A DNA stretch of 48,942 bases from Bifidobacterium hapali (GTDB lineage: Bacteria > Actinomycetota > Actinomycetes > Actinomycetales > Bifidobacteriaceae), in assembly GCF_002259755.1 (NCBI RefSeq), contig NZ_MWWY01000044.1:1-48942 (forward strand), read 5' to 3'. Numbering within the stretch: the first letter of the stretch is position 1; every line of letters starts with the position of its first letter. The notes beneath the pieces were generated by a model. That model had not been told where the DNA came from. It worked only from the letters and a program-made list of their open reading frames with translations, and did no database searches. Positions 907 through 11,288 of this stretch are shown here, piece after piece. A program made the position numbers and the translations under genes.

Positions 907-2291
907 ATTTCAATCCACGCTCTCCGTGAGGAGAGCGGCGGGGATTGCCATATGGGCATCACCTGCAATAACAAATTTCAATCCACGCTCTCCGTGAGGA
1001 GAGCGGCGTATCCCAAAGGGGAGAATTAAATATCCCAAAAGGATTTCAATCCACGCTCTCCGTGAGGAGAGCGGCGTTCGAACCGTTCTGCGGCGACAAG
1101 GAGGCCGTATTTCAATCCACGCTCTCCGTGAGGAGAGCGGCTCGAACAGCTGCGCATCATTCACGACAGCATGCCCATTTCAATCCACGCTCTCCGTGAG
1201 GAGAGCGACCTAGGCACAACCAGCCGTGAAGCGTCTACCACCATCATTTCAATCCACGCTCTCCGTGAGGAGAGCGACCGTAATTGTCCATTGGTTTCCA
1301 CCACAGGTAGGAATTTCAATCCACGCTCTCCGTGAGGAGAGCGACTATACGAGGCGTCCCCATCATCCCCGACCGCATGATTTCAATCCACGCTCTCCGT
1401 GAGGAGAGCGACTATACGAGGCGTCCCCATCATCCCCGACCGCATGATTTCAATCCACGCTCTCCGTGAGGAGAGCGACTTGTTCATGTCACCGCCAGCA
1501 GCTTCAGCACTGATTTCAATCCACGCTCTCCGTGAGGAGAGCGACCGACTACCACCGATCCGGCGCAATGGCGGCTGATATTTCAATCCACGCTCTCCGT
1601 GAGGAGAGCGACCGCTGGGTCGAACATCATCAACGGCCTGTGGAACGATTTCAATCCACGCTCTCCGTGAGGAGAGCGACCCCAGACCGCCGGCGCCGGC
1701 AAGCTCACGACCGAATTTCAATCCACGCTCTCCGTGAGGAGAGCGACACGTCCGCAAACGATTGGATCGCACCAGTATTCTGATTTCAATCCACGCTCTC
1801 CGTGAGGAGAGCGACTGGCCCGCACGACGTTGATCCCATGATTGCGACGTATTTCAATCCACGCTCTCCGTGAGGAGAGCGACCGGACTATATGGTTCTC
1901 GGATCATCCTCGAGTCATTTCAATCCACGCTCTCCGTGAGGAGAGCGACCAACGGAGAGTCGCCCCTGTTCTTTTTCGATTCGGAATTTCAATCCACGCT
2001 CTCCGTGAGGAGAGCGACCGCCGGGCGGGTGCTCCGTAAAGCAGCAAAATCTGTATTTCAATCCACGCTCTCCGTGAGGAGAGCGACCCATGTTCCACCG
2101 TCCTTACTTGGTGAGGAGCACATTTCAATCCACGCTCTCCGTGAGGAGAGCGACTCGGACAGGACTTCATCGCCGCCATGATGACCATACACATTTCAAT
2201 CCACGCTCTCCGTGAGGAGAGCGACCTACAAGGACGGCAAACGGTATTTCGCCTACGTATTTCAATCCACGCTCTCCGTGAGGAGAGCGAC
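907..2291 (-). CRISPR. Type I-C CRISPR array, 21 repeats and 20 spacers
   Basis: Repeats are 33 bases and start at 907, 975, 1043, 1109, 1177, 1246, 1313, 1380, 1447, 1513, 1580, 1648, 1715, 1783, 1851, 1917, 1986, 2055, 2122, 2193 and 2259. Spacers are 33-38 bases. Read on the minus strand the repeat starts GTCGCTCTCC, has a 7-bp stem (GCTCTCC/GGAGAGC) with a TCAC loop, and ends GTGGATTGAAAT, the typical type I-C form cut by Cas5c. The cas genes are on the same strand upstream, so the leader side is the 2291 end. The four leader-distal repeats (907-1141) differ from the rest at one base (GGC instead of GAC on the plus strand). Spacers 1346-1379 and 1413-1446 are identical. Spacer targets could not be searched. 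Confidence 0.98.
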
Positions 2292-2733: not shown

Positions 2734-3024
2734 CTATATCATCATGACATCATCAACCGGCAGATGTCGTTGTTGACCAACATACTCAATCCGAGTCGAA
2801 TACTTCGCACCAAGATTATAAAACCGAAGACTGTCATGTTCAGCATCAATAATCTCGTCCAACTCGTGACGCAACACCACATAATCCGACGACGATACTG
2901 AACATTCGAATACACTGTTCTGTACTCGTTGACCGTATTTCATACAGGCTTTTGCCACCCGCCGCAGTCGACGCCGCCCCGCTGGCGTTTCAGTATTCAC
3001 ATCATAGGTAATCACAATCATCAT
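2734..3024 (-). CDS. cas2: CRISPR-associated protein Cas2
   Basis: Cas2 pairs with Cas1 to form the complex that captures and inserts new spacers. The protein is about 96 residues, normal for the family. Its N terminus MMIVITYDVNT is the characteristic first strand of the ferredoxin-like fold, with the conserved Asp at residue 8; the FYNLG segment near residue 70 is also typical. The start was set at ATG 3024 because the Cas2 fold begins there; a GTG at 3033 would add three residues. The gene follows cas1 by about a dozen bases and is the last cas gene before the leader. Confidence 0.95.
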   Translation of the reverse strand: MMIVITYDVNTETPAGRRRLRRVAKACMKYGQRVQNSVFECSVSSSDYVVLRHELDEIIDAEHDSLRFYNLGAKYSTRIEYVGQQRHLPVDDVMMI

Positions 3025-3036
3025 CGTTATCACTCA

Positions 3037-4068
3037 TCATTTCCACATAAACGGCGGATACGCATCACTATCACCACGCACATAACGAGCCAACAATAAT
3101 GCCTGTGCATGCGGCACTAATCCCCACGGAATCTTTTCTTCTAAAAATGGATGCGTGATTTGCTCGGTTTTTCGTTTCTGCCATGCCGCAAGCACAATTT
3201 TGCGACCTGATTCGTTCAGAAATACGCCCCCATTCTCACGTTCTTCAAAATGCGCGGCTTGCACAGCACCAGTATTAATTAGCGTTAGTGCGAATCGATC
3301 GGCAACTACTGGACGGAATTCTTCCATCAGATCCAATGCCAGCGAGGGCCTCCCTGGTCTATCGACATGCAAGAATCCCACATAAGGATCCAATCCAACC
3401 CCTTGCAATGCAGCAACGCAATCTCCTGTCAACAACGTATATACAAACGACAGTAACGCATTCATTCGGTCTAATGGAGGCCTTCGACTGCGCTGTTCAA
3501 AGAAAAATGAATCTTTATCGCGAAGAATTAGATCATCGAATGCATAAAAATAATCTTTCGCAGCTTTGCCTTCCACTCCACGCACCTCGTCAACCGAAGC
3601 ACAAGACATCACTCGTCTCAACCCATCTTTCAACAAACTGCTTTGCTCCATAAGACGTTCAGCATTCACGCGCAACGTATGATCTCGTTTTGTGCGTTCG
3701 ATAACCCATCGACAGTTATATATCTTGCCAGCAACGAACGCTGCAGCAAGTTCAAGACTATTCTCAGAAGAATCAGCTCTGCGAAACTGCTCTCTGCGAA
3801 GCAATACGTTACGATTATTTTCACCAAGTATCGAACAATAGAATCTTCCACGCGGAGAGAAAAACGACATTCCCACACCAAACCGCGAACATTTGCCCAT
3901 TAAAGCTGGCGACGCGCCTTTGTACGAGAAACTGATAATTTGTTCGATGGAACGCAACGGTATCTTTGCCAAAGTTTTATCGTCAATCTGTACAACAACA
4001 TTGTCATTTTCTAACGATAGATATGCATCGTCGCTCGTTACGAACAATGTATTAAGCATGGTACGCAT
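3037..4068 (-). CDS. cas1: CRISPR-associated integrase Cas1 (type I-C)
   Basis: Cas1 is the metal-dependent integrase that inserts spacers at the leader end of the array. The protein has 343 residues. The expected catalytic residues are present: Glu166 in RGVEGKA, His234 in GFLHVDR and Glu249 in LMEEFRP. The RRPPLDRMNALLSF block between them is typical of the family. GGGGAG stands 8 bases before ATG 4068 and supports that start; an internal Met4 is possible. It is preceded by cas4 with a 28-base gap and followed by cas2, forming the adaptation module. Confidence 0.97.
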   Translation of the reverse strand: MRTMLNTLFVTSDDAYLSLENDNVVVQIDDKTLAKIPLRSIEQIISFSYKGASPALMGKCSRFGVGMSFFSPRGRFYCSILGENNRNVLLRREQFRRADSSENSLELAAAFVAGKIYNCRWVIERTKRDHTLRVNAERLMEQSSLLKDGLRRVMSCASVDEVRGVEGKAAKDYFYAFDDLILRDKDSFFFEQRSRRPPLDRMNALLSFVYTLLTGDCVAALQGVGLDPYVGFLHVDRPGRPSLALDLMEEFRPVVADRFALTLINTGAVQAAHFEERENGGVFLNESGRKIVLAAWQKRKTEQITHPFLEEKIPWGLVPHAQALLLARYVRGDSDAYPPFMWK

Positions 4069-4096: not shown

Positions 4097-4789
4097 CTAA
4101 ACAGCCACTTCGCTATCATGTATAACCTCATAAATACGATCATCAACATATTTGCGTGCTGATCGTTTCTTCAATAATTCCGGCAAACATACATCTTTCA
4201 ACGAGCACGCTTTACAACCTTGCTTTGTTCTCACTTTCGGAGTATGACCACGGGTATAAAAATCATGCATCTGACGAAACATATCCGTCACCGTTTCGCG
4301 CAATGATTCATCAAAACTTACGGTTTCACGTCGCCGTATGTGTTGATAGAATAACGCGCCTTCACGAATGTCACAAGACAACATTTCTTCTAAACACATC
4401 GCTTCAGCACACAACTGCAATCGATCAGCATCCTGCGTTTTAGGCTGTCCGTGTTTGTATTCTACCGGATACGGAATCCACTGACCATCACGTCCTTGCA
4501 ACGTCACACCATCAGGCGAAGCATGAAACTCCACAACATCGCACGCTCCAGACACACCCATCCGCCGGGAAAATACTCTCAGATCACGTAAAATTAACAG
4601 ATCCCCACGTTTTTCTGATGCGCCATAATCATGTGCTCGCTCATGCTCTATTGAACCTGATGTCGTCAACACATTGTCTTGCCATAATTGCTCGACATGA
4701 ATCAGCGCCCATTGACGACGACAGAATGAAAAATGTTGGATGCCAGATAAAGATAGCCAATCATCTTCTGCGTATTCGGCCAGTTCCAT
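4097..4789 (-). CDS. cas4: CRISPR-associated exonuclease Cas4
   Basis: Cas4 trims and orients prespacers so that those with a correct PAM are inserted. The protein (230 residues from ATG 4789) has the RecB-like nuclease motif VEYKHG and the four Cys that hold an iron-sulfur cluster: one in SFCRRQW near the N terminus and three in CKACSLKDVC near the C terminus. An AAGGAG stands 8-9 bases before ATG 4789; the open frame extends 14 codons further, but that part lacks family similarity. It lies 195 bases downstream of cas7, an unusually wide gap in this otherwise tight operon. Confidence 0.95.
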   Translation of the reverse strand: MELAEYAEDDWLSLSGIQHFSFCRRQWALIHVEQLWQDNVLTTSGSIEHERAHDYGASEKRGDLLILRDLRVFSRRMGVSGACDVVEFHASPDGVTLQGRDGQWIPYPVEYKHGQPKTQDADRLQLCAEAMCLEEMLSCDIREGALFYQHIRRRETVSFDESLRETVTDMFRQMHDFYTRGHTPKVRTKQGCKACSLKDVCLPELLKKRSARKYVDDRIYEVIHDSEVAV

Positions 4790-4897
4790 CGCAATGACTC
4801 CTTTGTCGTTCGCGACTCGCTCACTTCTCATGACTCGCGCATCTTACACGTTACTAACTTACGTACATGGATACGCGCACATACATTCTCACACAGT

Positions 4898-4984: not shown

Positions 4985-5917
4985 TTACAGTTCGTGATCG
5001 ACCATTTCAGTCACAGATACAGCATCCGGAATAGCACTGCGATCCACGGAAACCTCATAGTCTCCAAAGCTGCGCGCAACATCCACATCATCGCGTTTGT
5101 GAACCGCAATGCTATCGAACAATCTCCACGATGGAGCGTCGCCAAGTGCGCTACTGTGCTTGAACACATACAGCTTGCGTACTGCCATGTTGCCTCGCGC
5201 AGCGGAACGATCAAACTCAAACATGTTCACAATCGCCTGCCATAGTACGTCGAGATCCTCATCGCTGAATCCGGTGACATTCTGCGCGAGTTTGGCGGAA
5301 ACATAGCCGTTCATGCGATATAAACCGTAGGGAATAATGAACTTATTGCCCATCGTATTGTTCTTTTCCGCAGCATCCGCTTCCGTAGTCACGGCAATAC
5401 GCGTAATAGAAATTTCTTGCACGCTGACTGGGTCAATAGAACGAGCGAAACCAAGCTGGACCGGTCCACGAACTTGACCGCAAGACAAGCTGCCCTTAAC
5501 GAATGTGGTCATTACCGCACCGAATGTTCGAATATCAAAGAAATTAGCGCACATGTAGTCACGCAACCGACGATCCAATGTCGGATCATCTTTTTTCAAC
5601 GCTTTTATTTCTTTGGCGAATTCCTTATCTTCAGGACGTGCATCAATGTGTTCAGCTTCTAACGCTTCACTATCAAGTCGATTAAGAGTTCGTTCATTTT
5701 GAATGTAAATACGCCACGGAGCAGCATTGCCCATAATAGCTTGCACTCCGTCACGAATTTTACGTTTAATACAAACATCAGTCACCAGACCGTTGCCGGT
5801 TTCGATATCGACGCGCGGCATGTTACCCGAATCTGGGTCGCCGTTAGGATTACCATTTTCCACGTCGAAAAGGATGGTAAAGTCATAGCGATTTTCAATA
5901 GGTGCGTAATCAGTCAT
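4985..5917 (-). CDS. cas7: Cascade backbone protein Cas7 (Csd2), type I-C
   Basis: Cas7 polymerises along the crRNA spacer and forms the Cascade backbone; its thumb flips out every sixth guide base. The N-terminal block NRYDFTILFDVENGNPNGDPDSGNMPR is the hallmark of Csd2/Csh2-type Cas7. From ATG 5917 the protein has 310 residues. AAGGAG stands 6 bases before this ATG. The start lies inside the end of cas8c (8-base overlap, 5910-5917), which suggests translational coupling. Confidence 0.96.
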   Translation of the reverse strand: MTDYAPIENRYDFTILFDVENGNPNGDPDSGNMPRVDIETGNGLVTDVCIKRKIRDGVQAIMGNAAPWRIYIQNERTLNRLDSEALEAEHIDARPEDKEFAKEIKALKKDDPTLDRRLRDYMCANFFDIRTFGAVMTTFVKGSLSCGQVRGPVQLGFARSIDPVSVQEISITRIAVTTEADAAEKNNTMGNKFIIPYGLYRMNGYVSAKLAQNVTGFSDEDLDVLWQAIVNMFEFDRSAARGNMAVRKLYVFKHSSALGDAPSWRLFDSIAVHKRDDVDVARSFGDYEVSVDRSAIPDAVSVTEMVDHEL

Positions 5918-7712
5918 TGATCTCTCCTTGTTCATCATCATTGGTGTTTATAGTGGTCTTGTTGTAACGCTTCTGATTTTCGAAATAGTACCCAAGCTGG
6001 AAAGCGCCGCGTTCTTCAAGAGAAAGTTTCGATGGGAAACGGTCCCCCACCATCGCGCTTAGCTCTCCAAGCTTTTGGCCCAACTTAACCTTGTATCCTT
6101 GCGAGGTCCAAGTTTTCTTCATATGCTTTGCAGCAAGATCACCCAAAATCGGGAATATACGAGCTGGAGTCGCAGACGCACTAGTGAAATACTTATCTTT
6201 AATCGTAGTATTAATACCGGGTATAGCAGCTAATTGAATCTGCTCATAGACTGAGAACATGCGACCAAGTACGTATGGCACATATCTGCTTTCTTCATTA
6301 ATGTCCACTTGTAATACCTCCTTGAATTGTGCATTCGTTGTTGTGCGTAAGTAATACGCTTTAATAATTGCTGCTTTGTCAGGTGAAACATCGTGTTCAG
6401 CGATAATGCGGCGTTCCACAGCGTTGATTAAACTCACTGGATATGGCGTGCCGTTAAGAATTGCCTTCATAACCGCACCAGCCATTTCCGCTGATATTTT
6501 CGCATTTTTACTTTGCTGTCTGATAGTTTGATTAAGCAATCGCCACGTCGGTAAAAATACGGTCGTGTCGTAGTTGGGACGACGAATTTCAACATCGTTA
6601 TAGTGTTGTTCGATGTTGCGAGCGAATGTGCCGAACGTGTTAGTTAAGTAGAATCGAACTGATAGTCGTGCTGCATTAGGAGATAACGCCAGTATATGGA
6701 ATTCTTCATCTGGTGCAAGATGAATACCTTCATAGTTATATGGTTTTCCATGTGCGAGCGCTTGTGTCGCCGACTTAATTGTCGATTCTTTCAAACCACC
6801 GGCAGATTGTGCCGAAGCACCATATCGAGAGCGAGAGGACATCGCACCATTGATCATATAAGAATAAGCAGGGTCGCCGCAGCGCGCCCACGACACAACA
6901 GTGGCGTCACCAATATATTGGACTCCATCCTGATCGAAGAGCAGCGTATTTAATGCTGTAGTGTATTCGTAAGCTTCCCGTTTGCTCATTGGAGCATTCT
7001 CGTTCTGCTCAACACCATGAGAGCAGAACGCTGACGCATTAAATGAAATCAGCGATGCGCCAGCTGATTGTGCTCCCATGACTCCCTTGATTTTGGGATG
7101 CGTTTTTGCTGGGATGACAGGTTTACCAGAAACTAGACTGATCATTGTTTCCGCCTCGCCATCTGCATCCTCATGATCGTAGTATGCAAGCCAAGCATCT
7201 TGTACGGAAGCGCAATCTCCAACGAATGTTGTACCAGTCCCATCGTCATATCGCAGGACGAAATTCATCGTCTGAGCAGTTTTCCAAGCATCGTCGCCCA
7301 AAAACCGTTGCGCAGTTTCCCATTGCGGATCGCGTGTGAAAAACTCACGTACCGCAGCTGCGGCTGGCTCTTCAATTCCATCTAATATGCGATTATGTAA
7401 ATCACCACACGCTCGGAACGCTTGTACAGCTCGTTCTGGCTTGCCCTTGGCATTGTACCCAAGCATGTATGCGACAGTATCGCAGAGAAAATTCGCTACA
7501 ATATCGGACGATCGAGGAGTACGAGTTGGTACTGAGATGAAATTTATTGGTTTTTTACTGCTGTGATCGCCCAAGGGTTGAACATTGACTAGTTGACCTG
7601 CATCGTTGATCACGAGACCGTACGGCACATTGATATTATCGTATCCATAAGCTGGCGCTAGCTGCTTGGACACAAGCACGTTGTATTCATCGCAAAGATC
7701 GCTGATAATCAT
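5910..7712 (-). CDS. cas8c: Cascade large subunit Cas8c (Csd1)
   Basis: Cas8c is the large subunit of type I-C Cascade that reads the PAM and recruits Cas3; an internal start in cas8c also yields the small subunit Cas11c in characterised type I-C systems, though no such start was pinpointed here. The protein has 600 residues, a usual length for Csd1. It is recognised mostly by its place between cas5c and cas7 and by its overall sequence, including the N-terminal PAYGYDNINVPYGLVI segment. The ATG overlaps the cas5 stop by 4 bases (ATGA, 7709-7712). Confidence 0.94.
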   Translation of the reverse strand: MIISDLCDEYNVLVSKQLAPAYGYDNINVPYGLVINDAGQLVNVQPLGDHSSKKPINFISVPTRTPRSSDIVANFLCDTVAYMLGYNAKGKPERAVQAFRACGDLHNRILDGIEEPAAAAVREFFTRDPQWETAQRFLGDDAWKTAQTMNFVLRYDDGTGTTFVGDCASVQDAWLAYYDHEDADGEAETMISLVSGKPVIPAKTHPKIKGVMGAQSAGASLISFNASAFCSHGVEQNENAPMSKREAYEYTTALNTLLFDQDGVQYIGDATVVSWARCGDPAYSYMINGAMSSRSRYGASAQSAGGLKESTIKSATQALAHGKPYNYEGIHLAPDEEFHILALSPNAARLSVRFYLTNTFGTFARNIEQHYNDVEIRRPNYDTTVFLPTWRLLNQTIRQQSKNAKISAEMAGAVMKAILNGTPYPVSLINAVERRIIAEHDVSPDKAAIIKAYYLRTTTNAQFKEVLQVDINEESRYVPYVLGRMFSVYEQIQLAAIPGINTTIKDKYFTSASATPARIFPILGDLAAKHMKKTWTSQGYKVKLGQKLGELSAMVGDRFPSKLSLEERGAFQLGYYFENQKRYNKTTINTNDDEQGEIND

Positions 7713-8365
7713 GAGCGCACCTCCGCCGATGCGACATCCAATACCCCATTGTCTAGCGCAGCGCGGAAGAACAATGGCTGAGGCTGTGCTGGATTACGAT
7801 AGTCAAAGTCGTAAAACATATAGCCCAGATCGCGGTGCCCTTGTTCAAAACCGACTGGTTCTGATTCTCCTTCCCACACGCGGAATTCGGCAGGAAATTC
7901 TCGTGTTCCAAAATACGGATGATGGAAATACTGTCCTTTGGCTGCACGTCGCATAAACATGCTCTGGAATTTTTCCGCTGAATCCGCTGGTGACATTCTC
8001 TTACGATTCATGTCAAAATGTGCATCGATCACATATCTCACATCACGCAAAACAGTAGAAGCGCGCTGCTGAATGGATTCCGACGTATAGATGGCACCGC
8101 CATCGCCGCGGCCTTCTGCCATTGCTTTGATTTTACTGACATTGATAACGCTGTCCACCTCATTGCGGCGAATACTTGAGAATCGTATAGGATTGAGCAC
8201 ATGAATCTTATCGATTCTCCATATCATGCCAGGATGCCAGAAGATAGCTTCCAACAGGCCGCGAGCCGCTGATGGCGTCATAACGTCATAGGTGACACGC
8301 TCAACCTTTAATTCGGGACGAGAGAAGAGTGCGTAGTCTCCCCACACTTCTAAACGTACTGACAT
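7709..8365 (-). CDS. cas5c: crRNA-processing Cas5c (Cas5d)
   Basis: In type I-C systems, which lack Cas6, Cas5c cuts the repeat at the base of its stem and stays bound to the 5' handle of the crRNA. The protein has 218 residues from ATG 8365. Its start MSVRLEVWGDYALFSRPELKVE.VTYDVMTPSA.RG has the conserved Cas5 N-terminal strand and glycine-rich region. AAGGAGG stands directly upstream of ATG 8365; the open frame runs 29 codons further up but overlaps the promoter at 8423-8452, so it was not used. This is the first gene of the cas5-cas2 operon. Confidence 0.96.
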   Translation of the reverse strand: MSVRLEVWGDYALFSRPELKVERVTYDVMTPSAARGLLEAIFWHPGMIWRIDKIHVLNPIRFSSIRRNEVDSVINVSKIKAMAEGRGDGGAIYTSESIQQRASTVLRDVRYVIDAHFDMNRKRMSPADSAEKFQSMFMRRAAKGQYFHHPYFGTREFPAEFRVWEGESEPVGFEQGHRDLGYMFYDFDYRNPAQPQPLFFRAALDNGVLDVASAEVRS

Positions 8366-8422
8366 ATTCCTCCTTCCCTTGCTGGAGTGGTACATGAGAA
8401 CATCTCTGTTCTGCTGGTAATC

Positions 8423-8452
8423 AATATACCATATCTTAATGATAATTAACAA
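8423..8452 (-). promoter_or_regulatory. Promoter of the cas5-cas8c-cas7-cas4-cas1-cas2 operon
   Basis: On the minus strand TTGTTA (8452-8447) stands 18 bases before TATATT (8428-8423). The TG two positions ahead of the -10 box makes it an extended -10 promoter. Transcription would start near 8416, about 50 bases before the cas5 ATG. The -35 box lies inside the site matched by the crRNA-like element at 8578. Confidence 0.7.
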
Positions 8453-8475
8453 TAAAATAAATATGAAAATATTAT
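8446..8475 (+). promoter_or_regulatory. Divergent promoter that could make the crRNA-like RNA
   Basis: On the plus strand TTAACA (8446-8451) stands 18 bases before TATTAT (8470-8475); each box matches 5 of 6 consensus bases. Its -35 box is the same DNA as the cas5 -35 box. A transcript would start near 8482 and reach the lone repeat at 8578 about 95 bases later. The AT-rich context makes chance matches possible. Confidence 0.5.
8448..8467 (-). promoter_or_regulatory. Protospacer-like site in the cas promoter, with TTC PAM
   Basis: On the minus strand a TTC (8467-8465), the usual type I-C PAM, is followed by a site (8464-8448) matching the first 17 bases after the lone repeat at 15 positions. 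The mismatches are at positions 6 and 12, and the next at 18, after which the match ends. In Cascade every sixth guide base is flipped out and does not pair, so the pairing segments are unbroken for the first 17 positions. The site covers the -35 boxes of both divergent promoters, so bound Cascade would block them. Binding is inferred. Confidence 0.75.
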
Positions 8476-8577
8476 TTATTTACCGGTTCATGGCATCAAC
8501 AGATCTCCGCCTCCATGAGCCTTATTCATAATTGCGAAACAAGTCACCCCATTGGACTATGTATTCTGTACATATCA

Positions 8578-8643
8578 GTCATTCTCCGCAAGGAGAATGT
8601 GGATTGAAAAATATTGATTTTTTTGTTTCGGTAGATCGTAAAC
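8578..8643 (+). ncRNA. crRNA-like RNA: lone CRISPR-type repeat plus spacer-like guide (CreR/CreA type)
   Basis: 8578-8610 aligns without gaps to the 33-base array repeat read on the minus strand, with 26 identities. The stem changes from GCTCTCC/GGAGAGC to ATTCTCC/GGAGAAT, two base pairs altered on both sides so that pairing is kept; the loop becomes GCAA, a GNRA tetraloop; the 5'-handle part GTGGATTGAAA is unchanged. The next 33 bases (8611-8643) have the length of an array spacer and begin ATATTGATTTTTTTGTT, which targets the cas5 promoter at 8464-8448. A hairpin at 8644-8683 stands where a second repeat would be. Cas5c could process this RNA and load it into Cascade. Known relatives in form are the crRNA-like regulators called CreR and CreA. 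Expression is not shown. Confidence 0.75.
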
Positions 8644-8683
8644 ACCTCGTGTGCCCACCCTTTCACGGACGAGCACACGAGGT
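8644..8683. terminator. Hairpin after the cas3 stop and after the crRNA-like RNA
   Basis: ACCTCGTGTGC (8644-8654) and GCACACGAGGT (8673-8683) form a perfect 11-bp stem with an 18-base loop. It begins one base after the cas3 stop codon on the minus strand and 33 bases after the lone repeat on the plus strand. It may end or stabilise both convergent transcripts. No T-run follows on either side, so intrinsic termination is uncertain. Confidence 0.55.
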
Positions 8684-8684
8684 A

Positions 8685-11156
8685 TCACACAAAAATACCG
8701 TCAGTCGACACGCCATCCACGCGCAGCCCCAGCCGCGACGAATACAAACTCATATCCCGCAAAATAAAACACTCTTCCTCAGCGTTCGTCCCGCGACCAA
8801 CCGTCAACACGGCGCCTGCCGACTGTAATTTCGCAAGATGCTGAGGCCACACGTTAACCGCATACTTACCCAACTTCCGAAACAGCATGCGGTCAATATC
8901 GCCGTGTTCTAGCCGCTCACATAATCGCGCACCCTCATCGCCGAGCTCATCAGATAATGGGATATACACCGGCACTGTAGGGGTGTCAATGAGTTTGAAC
9001 GATCGAGCAATACGTTCAAACGGCATGTCCACTACCGCATTGTCACCGTGTAAAGGCAGGATGCGATGCGTATCAAACGCGTCATTAACAGCGGAACGAG
9101 CCGAACCAGCAGATCCACTGCCATACATTTCCAGCAGCCTCTGAAAATAGGCTTGAATCGCATCTTGCGAAGTCAGATCAGGATACTGTCGTAACACATC
9201 ACGAAACGCCGCGATATTCTGCTGAAGGAACGGCGCACAACCACCCTCCGTGCAAAACACATATACTTTGCTTGTCTCAGCAGAATGCCGACCTTCACGA
9301 TTGCATCGTCCGGCAGTCTGAATAACGGAATCAAGTCCAGCCTGTTCACGGTATGCGACAGGAAAATCAACATCTACACCAGCTTCAATCAAAGAAGTCG
9401 ACACCACGCGGCACAACTCTCCTGCTGTAAGACGCGTACGAATAGTGTCAAGCAATCGTTTACGATCAGCCGCACACTGTAATGTGGTCAGGCAGAAGGT
9501 TCCCTCCGCACCGCCATTCTGCGCAAGTTGATCATAGAGATACTGTGCTTTCTTGCGCGTATTGACAACACACAAAACCTGTTCATGACCGCCCAGTCGG
9601 TCCGCAAGCGTATCCAATGCAATGTCACCGATGTGTTCGATAGTCACACGGCGGAACGAGTCGCGATCAGTATCTGAAAACGGCGAAATCTCTTGAATAT
9701 CAACGTCTGCCTCATCAGAAATACTGTTGAACAGTGGCGTAAAGTCCGGCTGTGTAGCTGTACACAACACAGCTGTGGAACCGTATTGTTGCACAAGTTC
9801 GGCGATTGCGGTAATGCACGGTCGCAAATACGGTACTGGCAGCGTCTGCGCTTCGTCGAACACGATAACTGCATTCGCAATGTTGTGAAGTTTACGACAG
9901 CGCGACGTTGAGTTCGAATACAGGCTTTCAAAAAACTGTACTGCCGTAGTGACTACGATCGGCGCGTTCCAGTTTTCGGCCGCGAGCGCACGGCTGAGAT
10001 CGGTTTCATCCATATCCGATTCATCTTTGAGCTGGTACGGAGCTTCAGCGTAGTGCGGCAGCACGGCATCCGTTCCAAAGATTGTCTCAAACTGGCTGAC
10101 AGTCTGATCGATAATTGACGTGTAGGGGATCACGTAGATGACTCGCGGCAGTCCGTGCGTACGCGCATGTTCGAGTGCAAACGTGATTGATGAGATGGTT
10201 TTACCACTGCCAGTGGGAGCGGTTAATGTGTACAGCCCTTTGCCGCGCGATGAGTCTTTCCCATAGGTAAGGCATCGCGTAAGTAGTTCACATCGTTTGA
10301 TGTCGAGCGGTGTTTTGTTAGGTTTATTGAGATACTGTTGAGCGGTTTGCTCGACAATATCAGTCAGCCGCGCGATTGCCGAACATTGTTCGTGAGCATA
10401 TGTAGCGGCAATTTTCGACGATGTTTCACGCAATGTTTCCCATGAGGGAGCTTGTTCCTGCGCTAACGATTGTGGACCAAGCTGCTCCTTGAGCTGTTCT
10501 AACAGTTCATGTTCGGCGCGATGTTCACGGTTTGACGTGAAGAATTCCGCATCCAGACGGTCTCCATCCACTAACGCTGATAGCAGCATACGAGTCAGCA
10601 TCATGAAGGAGTAATGGGTCGGCTCAGTGGCCGGCGGTTGTGCAGATAACGCTGAGTCTGGAATATGCAGTTGCGTCGACCACGCATGAGCTAAGGCTAA
10701 TGGACTGCGCTCGCCAGCACTGAAAGCCTTGTTCATACGCCCGCTAAGGGTTGCTCCGTCTAGCTCATGAACATCGCCCACGTCTGCTAACCCTGCATGA
10801 TGAGCAGCTACTGCAAACTCCGCTGCGATACGACCATATTGATCTAACAACATCGCGCCTGCAGTGGAATGGTCAACTTTTCCTGAGTGTTCAGGATCTC
10901 GTATGCGTTTTTGAAACACAGAAGCATATTTGCCGATGTCGTGAAATAGTCCTGCTAACAGACCATCATCGAGATACCCGAATTGACTTGCAAAACCGCC
11001 AGACAGGCAACCGGTCATACACAGATGTTCTACGCATGTTTCATATCCGTGGTCGCTGGTTCGCGCATAAAACGGCTGAACTGGACGAGACGAGGAATTC
11101 CGACTAACTATTCCGTGTTGGCACCCGTGTTGAGCCGAATGTTCAACTGTTTCCAT
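8685..11156 (-). CDS. cas3: CRISPR-associated helicase-nuclease Cas3 (type I-C)
   Basis: Cas3 is recruited by target-bound Cascade to unwind and degrade DNA. The protein has 823 residues. The N-terminal HD nuclease domain has His72-Asp73 in LFHDIGKY. The SF2 helicase follows: Walker A TGSGKT near residue 315, the DEAQ motif in VIVFDEAQTL near 433, and motif VI QTAGRCNREGR. No key residue appears missing. ATG 11156 was chosen because GAGGGG stands 6 bases ahead; a TTG two codons earlier is possible. The gene has its own upstream region and is separated from cas5 by 319 bases holding the crRNA-like element. Confidence 0.96.
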   Translation of the reverse strand: METVEHSAQHGCQHGIVSRNSSSRPVQPFYARTSDHGYETCVEHLCMTGCLSGGFASQFGYLDDGLLAGLFHDIGKYASVFQKRIRDPEHSGKVDHSTAGAMLLDQYGRIAAEFAVAAHHAGLADVGDVHELDGATLSGRMNKAFSAGERSPLALAHAWSTQLHIPDSALSAQPPATEPTHYSFMMLTRMLLSALVDGDRLDAEFFTSNREHRAEHELLEQLKEQLGPQSLAQEQAPSWETLRETSSKIAATYAHEQCSAIARLTDIVEQTAQQYLNKPNKTPLDIKRCELLTRCLTYGKDSSRGKGLYTLTAPTGSGKTISSITFALEHARTHGLPRVIYVIPYTSIIDQTVSQFETIFGTDAVLPHYAEAPYQLKDESDMDETDLSRALAAENWNAPIVVTTAVQFFESLYSNSTSRCRKLHNIANAVIVFDEAQTLPVPYLRPCITAIAELVQQYGSTAVLCTATQPDFTPLFNSISDEADVDIQEISPFSDTDRDSFRRVTIEHIGDIALDTLADRLGGHEQVLCVVNTRKKAQYLYDQLAQNGGAEGTFCLTTLQCAADRKRLLDTIRTRLTAGELCRVVSTSLIEAGVDVDFPVAYREQAGLDSVIQTAGRCNREGRHSAETSKVYVFCTEGGCAPFLQQNIAAFRDVLRQYPDLTSQDAIQAYFQRLLEMYGSGSAGSARSAVNDAFDTHRILPLHGDNAVVDMPFERIARSFKLIDTPTVPVYIPLSDELGDEGARLCERLEHGDIDRMLFRKLGKYAVNVWPQHLAKLQSAGAVLTVGRGTNAEEECFILRDMSLYSSRLGLRVDGVSTDGIFV

Positions 11157-11288
11157 TATCAACCCCTCATCCGTTGCCGATCACAGTCTGCTTACAACAG
11201 GTACGTTTTAAGTAACACAACATTGTGGCCATGTTTCTTATCATCATACTCAATACACCTTGATATTAAGCCGCAACTGCAACTACCT

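Follow-up and report, generated by a model that had tools for sequence, protein, structure and literature searches.

A lone repeat inside a type I-C cas locus of Bifidobacterium hapali that probably encodes a CreR-type guide against its own cas operon promoter

A lone degenerate repeat between cas3 and cas5

Why does a single degenerate CRISPR repeat stand between cas3 and cas5, outside the array, and what is the short stretch behind it directed at? The question is raised by a 48,942-nt stretch of Bifidobacterium hapali DNA, called here the window, which carries on its minus strand an intact type I-C locus in which each cas gene is a full-length match to its family. The features of the locus and of the element within it are the following:

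8685-11162, minus strand, cas3 (TIGR01587 and TIGR01596), outside the presumed regulated operon
8611-8627, plus strand, guide of 17 nt, immediately 3′ of the 33-nt lone repeat, ATATTGATTTTTTTGTT
8578-8610, plus strand, lone degenerate type I-C repeat between cas3 and cas5, GTCATTCTCCGCAAGGAGAATGTGGATTGAAAA
8467-8465, minus strand, PAM TTC (reads GAA on the plus strand)
8464-8448, minus strand, protospacer-like target with a 15/17 match to the guide, ATATTTATTTTATTGTT
7709-8365, minus strand, cas5c (TIGR01876), first gene of the presumed regulated operon
5910-7712, minus strand, cas8c (TIGR01863)
4985-5941, minus strand, cas7 (TIGR02589)
4097-4831, minus strand, cas4 (TIGR00372)
3037-4068, minus strand, cas1 (TIGR03640)
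2734-3033, minus strand, cas2 (TIGR01573)
907-2291, minus strand, CRISPR array of 21 repeats of 33 nt

The lone repeat lies inside the cas locus, has kept the crRNA handle, and is like the array repeat at 26 of 33 bases, including 11 of the 12 at the 3′ end. Its stem carries paired substitutions relative to the array repeat (GC to AT, CG to TA) and still folds (MFE -11.7, z -3.6). A search allowing up to three mismatches gave 27 hits, 21 of them in the array and five in a run on contig C15, and the copy at 8578-8610 is the only one outside a run. Within the array, one repeat-spacer unit is exactly duplicated (1313-1446).

Since the array repeat is 33 nt long and all 21 copies end in ...GGATTGAAAT, base 1 of the guide is position 8611, so the register that an earlier note on this DNA had derived from the repeat end holds. 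So does the match it described: within the 17 nt the guide and the target, 82-99 nt upstream of the cas5 ATG, differ only at positions 6 and 12, and the next mismatch, at 18, is where the pairing stops; the target itself lies directly beside a TTC. An ordinary CRISPR spacer would match over its full ~34 nt and lie between two repeats; here there is one repeat and the match stops at 17.

Such a match is rarely reached by chance. The 740-nt region has 24 TTC sites, and of 100,000 shuffled guides only one matched any of these sites at 15/15 read positions. When the whole genome (2.83 Mb) was scanned with TTC plus the guide, leaving positions 6 and 12 free and allowing up to three mismatches, the single exact hit was the window target; the four remaining hits, one of them the guide itself, had three mismatches each, and the reversed pattern gave two hits. 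The 2.83-Mb genome thus holds no second target with fewer than three mismatches.

Matched guide and target pairs in other type I-C loci

We gathered type I-C loci by Cas5 matches, which were obtained in 18 of 112 genomes of the genus, in 13 of 189 of the family (genus included) and in 24 of 396 of a phylum sample. A further 80 loci, mostly from Clostridia, are the best 80 of 582 relatives. In three families around the Clostridial genomes Cas5 was present in 11/87, 56/400 and 32/397 genomes, from which 11, 30 and 30 loci were taken plus 27 of the 28 that were left, the last one lying at a contig start. One misplaced match (L149) was removed from all counts. The resulting 225 loci were reduced to 209 by removing 16 duplicates, to 202 by removing seven with less than 600 nt upstream, and to 192 by removing ten more duplicates. 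Every GATTGAAA handle (one mismatch allowed) at most 700 nt from cas5 was taken as a candidate, the bases following it were compared with every site in the region, and a pair was called at 13/15 or better beside TTC, or at 14/15 or better beside TTT or TTA.

A test set beforehand in the earlier note was whether the guides of relatives still match the region upstream of their own cas5. They do in 46 of the 192 distinct loci (window included), which represent 37 guide families; each of the 46 guides matches the cas5 upstream region of its own locus, beside TTC in 37 cases, TTT in eight and TTA in one. In the set of 202 loci (ten of them later recognised as duplicates), with TTC only, 42 of 292 handle candidates reached at least 13/15 at their own locus, versus 30 of 58,692 cross-locus pairings. 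With at most two exceptions, L156-L164 and L220-L100, these 30 connect loci that are duplicates or whose targets are homologous; the same is true, without exception, of the nine cross-locus pairings that reached 15. In the same set all 42 matched elements lie on the strand opposite cas5.

Neither the PAM nor the repeat had to be assumed. Best matches of at least 14/15 called PAM-free (n = 46) lay beside TTC in 34 cases, TTT in eight, TTA in one and other triplets in three, ties being assigned to TTC. A scan that ignored the repeat gave 34 hits, spread over 30 of 127 loci; 26 of the hits start right after a handle matching GATTGAAA at 7-8 of 8 positions; the reversed-guide control gave three hits, one of which is the pair of L091 itself. 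The first genus search gave five nearest relatives, and in four of them a pair is present whose guide is unlike that of the window (L011 and L012 at 15/15, L013 at 13, L014 at 11). In the one nearest by Cas5 (L010, 84%) no lone repeat was found in the 1.5-kb upstream stretch.

The lone repeats themselves resemble that of the window in keeping the handle: in 13 loci with an array, the lone and the array repeat, aligned without gaps, agree on average at 27% of the first 21 bases and at 93% of the last 12. Stems fold with z < -1 in 25 of 31 loci; L014 has no stem, and those of L075 and L082 are weak.

Every sixth base is free, and guides and targets change together

Across the 37 families, matches at positions 1 to 17 number 36, 37, 37, 37, 37, 12, 35, 36, 37, 37, 37, 10, 34, 36, 36, 31 and 28, and at positions 18 to 28 they number 10, 11, 10, 8, 7, 9, 8, 13, 5, 10 and 8, where chance is 10.9. 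Positions 1-5, 7-11 and 13-17 are thus matched in 531 of 555 cells, and positions 6 and 12 in 22 of 74. The high counts at the read positions arise because the families were selected on matching there; the selection took no account of positions 6, 12 and 18 onward, so the drop to chance at these positions is the informative part. The backbone of type I Cascade flips out every sixth base. The profile seen here is the pattern of such a backbone, cut off past the third segment, and the blindness to every sixth base that the earlier note had assumed is borne out by positions 6 and 12 being at chance.

Sister loci point the same way. In L042/L167 guide and target have changed together at positions 1 and 5, and the swapped combination scores 13 vs 15; in L047/L189 they have changed together at 7, 10 and 13 (11 vs 14 when swapped); in L013/L119 guide and target both differ at 2, 3 and 15. 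Within positions 1-17, the guides of L011 and L012 differ only at 6, and those of L073 and L077 only at 6 and 12. In two further sister groups, L059/L083 and L051 with L052/L226, AT-rich guides may have come together by chance. We conclude from these comparisons that the pairing is kept by selection in the relatives. The lone repeat, its register, the PAM, the 15/17 match and the relatives' matched pairs with compensatory changes are all read directly from the DNA.

Predicted promoters and ends of the lone-repeat RNA

Three further features of the window bear on transcription:

8423-8452, minus strand, predicted cas5-operon promoter TTGTTA-18-TATATT with TG before the -10 (consensus match only, 9/12)
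8446-8475, plus strand, promoter-like site TTAACA-18-TATTAT (consensus match only), which could drive the lone-repeat RNA and overlaps the target
8644-8683, plus strand, strong hairpin, 33 nt past the guide start, at the point where the lone-repeat RNA would run into cas3

The target was said in the earlier note to lie over the -35 box of the cas5 operon. It does cover five of the six bases of the predicted -35 hexamer TTGTTA (8452-8447), but the promoter is itself a prediction from nine of twelve consensus positions. In 8350-8720 there are five promoter-like sites, the cas5-operon promoter among them, where shuffled sequences give a mean of 1.8. On the strand of the element there are only two, which share one -35 and both overlap the target, so that the lone-repeat RNA would be repressed by its own product too; this is a lead, according to which the guide RNA of the window may also repress its own transcription. 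Directly 5′ of the lone repeat the scan of 8350-8720 found no promoter-like site. In L013 and L119 as well, the target is overlapped by the site that looks most like a promoter for the lone-repeat RNA. The hairpin at 8644-8683 is a possible 3′ end of the RNA; the promoter and terminator scan found no T-tailed terminator-like site 3′ of the element. In the cas5 leader, a short inverted repeat (GAACA...TGTTC), noticed by eye at 8380-8420 and with a similar counterpart in L010, could act as another control element.

Among the relatives, nine of 31 loci have their best sigma-70-like site on the element's strand with a -10 box that ends 1-3 nt before the lone repeat, so in these nine the RNA would start at the repeat. 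Targets strictly overlapped a predicted promoter in 12 of 31 cases, not significantly more than the 9.0 expected by chance (p 0.16). A wider interval, -65 to +25 relative to the predicted start, took in the target centres of 21 of 23 pairs against 11.4 expected (rank z -2.5); it was set afterwards, and five sisters as well as pairs scoring below 13 were left out. The target strand varies, being plus in 12 and minus in 19 of the 31 pairs.

The element occupies a gap upstream of cas5

We defined the gap as the distance from cas5 to the nearest upstream ORF of at least 120 codons on the same strand, which is cas3 in the window and was taken whatever its identity in the other loci; L243 and L248, where no upstream ORF was found, stand outside the bins. 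Of 66 loci whose gap measures 150-800 nt, 45 have the element, as against none of nine at 100-150 nt, one of 112 below 100 nt and none of three above 800 nt. A strong pair is absent in 21 of the 66 loci with a gap of 150-800 nt, three of which (L014, L016 and L063) have weak pairs of 11-12. In L115 cas5 is tight to its upstream ORF, and guide and target lie 2.2-2.4 kb before cas5, ahead of that ORF; that ORF has 713 codons, looks by eye like cas3 and follows the target after ~24 nt. The position of the element, judging from this arrangement, can shift when the operon starts further upstream. In L106 an ORF resembling a RelB/DinJ antitoxin (by eye; 6791-7126, minus strand) is found between the lone repeat and cas5.

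A branch with a DUF3990 cassette

Five loci (L091, L100, L201, L208 and L214) have their lone repeat and target at a distance of 1.0-1.2 kb upstream of cas5; the space between target and cas5, ~0.03-0.95 kb before cas5, is taken up by a DUF3990 gene and a gene of ~150 codons. The DUF3990 family (PF13151) was recognised with E 4e-50 in L091 and 5e-46 in L100, and the other copies by tblastn. The cassette occurs in eight of the 192 loci: in the five named, guide and target match at 13 or better beside TTC; the lone repeat of L216 is followed by a poor match (11), and L209 and L210 yielded no pair. The partner gene matched no Pfam family at 0.001, and at E 1 its only match, below the cut-off, was NA-iREase2 for the L100 copy (E 0.007); the DUF3990 protein of L091 had no solved-structure match at E 1. 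DUF3990 is placed in Pfam's ART clan in the relevant part of PMC7955679, and PMC12737573, in the text consulted, raises the question whether further CRISPR types have CrePA-like systems directed at different targets. By its gene content the branch is a possible CrePA-like cassette in type I-C, with DUF3990 as the putative toxin. More broadly, and with somewhat less than even confidence, we suggest that type I-C Cascade has a general, co-evolving self-repression switch that reads a 17-base window and is blind to every sixth base, and that a Lachnospiraceae branch inserted the ART-clan DUF3990 gene and its partner between the switch and cas5. This would make a suicide switch that fires on loss or inhibition of Cascade, equivalent to CrePA but in type I-C and with another toxin.

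Alternative explanations

The five cassette loci, in which lone repeats precede a DUF3990 gene, together with an anatomy identical to that of CreA, would fit a guide of the CreA type also in the window, that is, an antitoxin RNA that represses a small toxin gene and not cas5. We consider this improbable, since the target lies 82-99 nt before the cas5 ATG and the only minus-strand frames of at least 20 codons that start between the two are cas5 with an upstream extension and a 24-codon TTG frame. None of the ORFs in 8366-8684, read by eye, was recognised as toxin-like, a reading that covers protein toxins and with which an RNA toxin is compatible. The earlier note had likened the element to both CreR and CreA; the CreR features that could be checked are present, and the CreA half, with its toxin, appears not to fit the window, as no toxin gene is seen behind the target.

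That Cas1-Cas2 once captured a piece of the cas promoter, the match being the decaying accident of a leftover immune spacer, would account for the TTC PAM and for a match that starts at the repeat. It is very hard to reconcile with 37 families that keep matching at 13-17 and fall to chance at 6, 12 and 18 onward, it is contradicted by the compensatory changes in three sister pairs, and the strand is identical in 42 of 42; we give it hardly any weight.

Just as remote is a decoy like the Racr RNAs, in which a solitary repeat soaks up Cas5 or Cascade and the guide is irrelevant: the solitary I-C repeat would suit it, and a phage RacrIC1 is known from Bifidobacterium pseudocatenulatum (legend and text portions of PMC10651486), but the match between the guide and the region upstream of its own cas5 is maintained, the element sits within the cas locus, and no convincing phage copy of the guide behind a handle was found. 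Viral contigs were scanned with exact patterns of four Bifidobacteriaceae guides behind the handle. Three contigs were hit, all by one identical sequence that by eye lies inside a coding region without a repeat stem, and we regarded it as a coincidence. BLAST of the region against phages returned 29 records; in the ten listed, the match is AT-rich, has E 0.8 and is confined to the target side. Against plasmids it returned seven records (60-80% identity); the annotation was cas3 or cas5 in six of them and absent in the seventh.

Proposed mechanism and its implications

We return to self-regulation and propose, with a probability of about 90%, that the lone repeat and the following 17 nt encode a CreR-type crRNA-like RNA that guides type I-C Cascade to repress the promoter of cas5-8-7-4-1-2, whereby Cascade would set its own level. 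The RNA, the repression and the response to crRNA competition or to Cascade inhibitors are modelled on known CreR. The lone repeat would be transcribed toward cas3; Cas5 would cleave at the hairpin, leaving the last bases of the repeat as the 5′ handle, and the RNA would be loaded on Cascade. The loaded complex would then bind TTC and the 17 bases and block RNA polymerase at the cas5 promoter, presumably with no attack by Cas3 on this target because the pairing ends at 17. Repression would be released when array crRNAs or anti-CRISPRs draw Cascade away.

If this holds, self-repression extends to type I-C, which is not among the subtypes named as shown in the portion of PMC13131331 that treats them. 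The dozens of natural pairs would also display the bases on which stable binding of I-C Cascade, with no attack following, likely depends. A prediction is that anti-CRISPRs or Racrs against type I-C in bifidobacteria and gut Clostridia raise cas expression. The sister pairs with compensatory changes are ready material for swaps of guide and target, and the relatives offer a natural test bed for the DUF3990 variant.

Comparison with known systems

CreR is said to be the subject of a study by Liu et al. in Cell Host Microbe in 2023. Shmakov et al. (NAR, 2023) reportedly described crRNA-like regulatory elements, mostly of type I, in which standalone repeats, often as two-repeat mini-arrays, are followed by spacers that partly match cas promoters. 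The window element, a standalone repeat with a partial match to the cas promoter, is like these; it differs in having one repeat where theirs reportedly often have two.

Solitary I-C repeats are shared with Racr, which in the description available from PMC10651486 are repeat mimics encoded by phages or other invaders; the window element lies between cas3 and cas5. CrePA (PMC12737573, in the parts that describe it) has a target promoter that drives a protein toxin, whereas in the window the target directly precedes cas5. It is the DUF3990 variant of the five relatives that resembles CrePA, with a protein gene behind a promoter presumably covered by Cascade. CreP is typically KilA-N according to these parts of PMC12737573, and the five relatives have instead DUF3990, of the ART clan (PMC7955679). 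CreA of the type I-B CreTA of haloarchaea has, in the sections seen of PMC9458426, one or two degenerate repeats and a short promoter match read by Cascade. It thus shares the degenerate repeat and the short promoter match with the window; its target is the promoter of a toxin RNA, and that of the window is the cas5 upstream region.

The closest likeness is to CreR. A literature search judged by titles and abstract starts found no paper on a type I-C CreR. In the passages of PMC12737573, PMC13131331 and PMC12948488 that define it, CreR is a cas-regulating RNA of the cas locus, with a degenerate repeat outside the array and a short guide partly complementary to the cas promoter. According to these passages it has been shown in I-B, I-E and V-A (PMC13131331) or, in a broader statement, acts in type I and V-A (PMC12737573). 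For type I-C, the processing enzyme is Cas5 (figure legend of PMC10651486). The window element departs from CreR as so described in its subtype, in its single repeat and in a 17-nt pairing window with positions 6 and 12 free. With CreR it shares the degenerate repeat outside the array, the place in the cas locus and the limited complementarity of its guide to a predicted cas promoter beside a PAM. On the features that could be tested, it is best read as working like CreR and as belonging with it.
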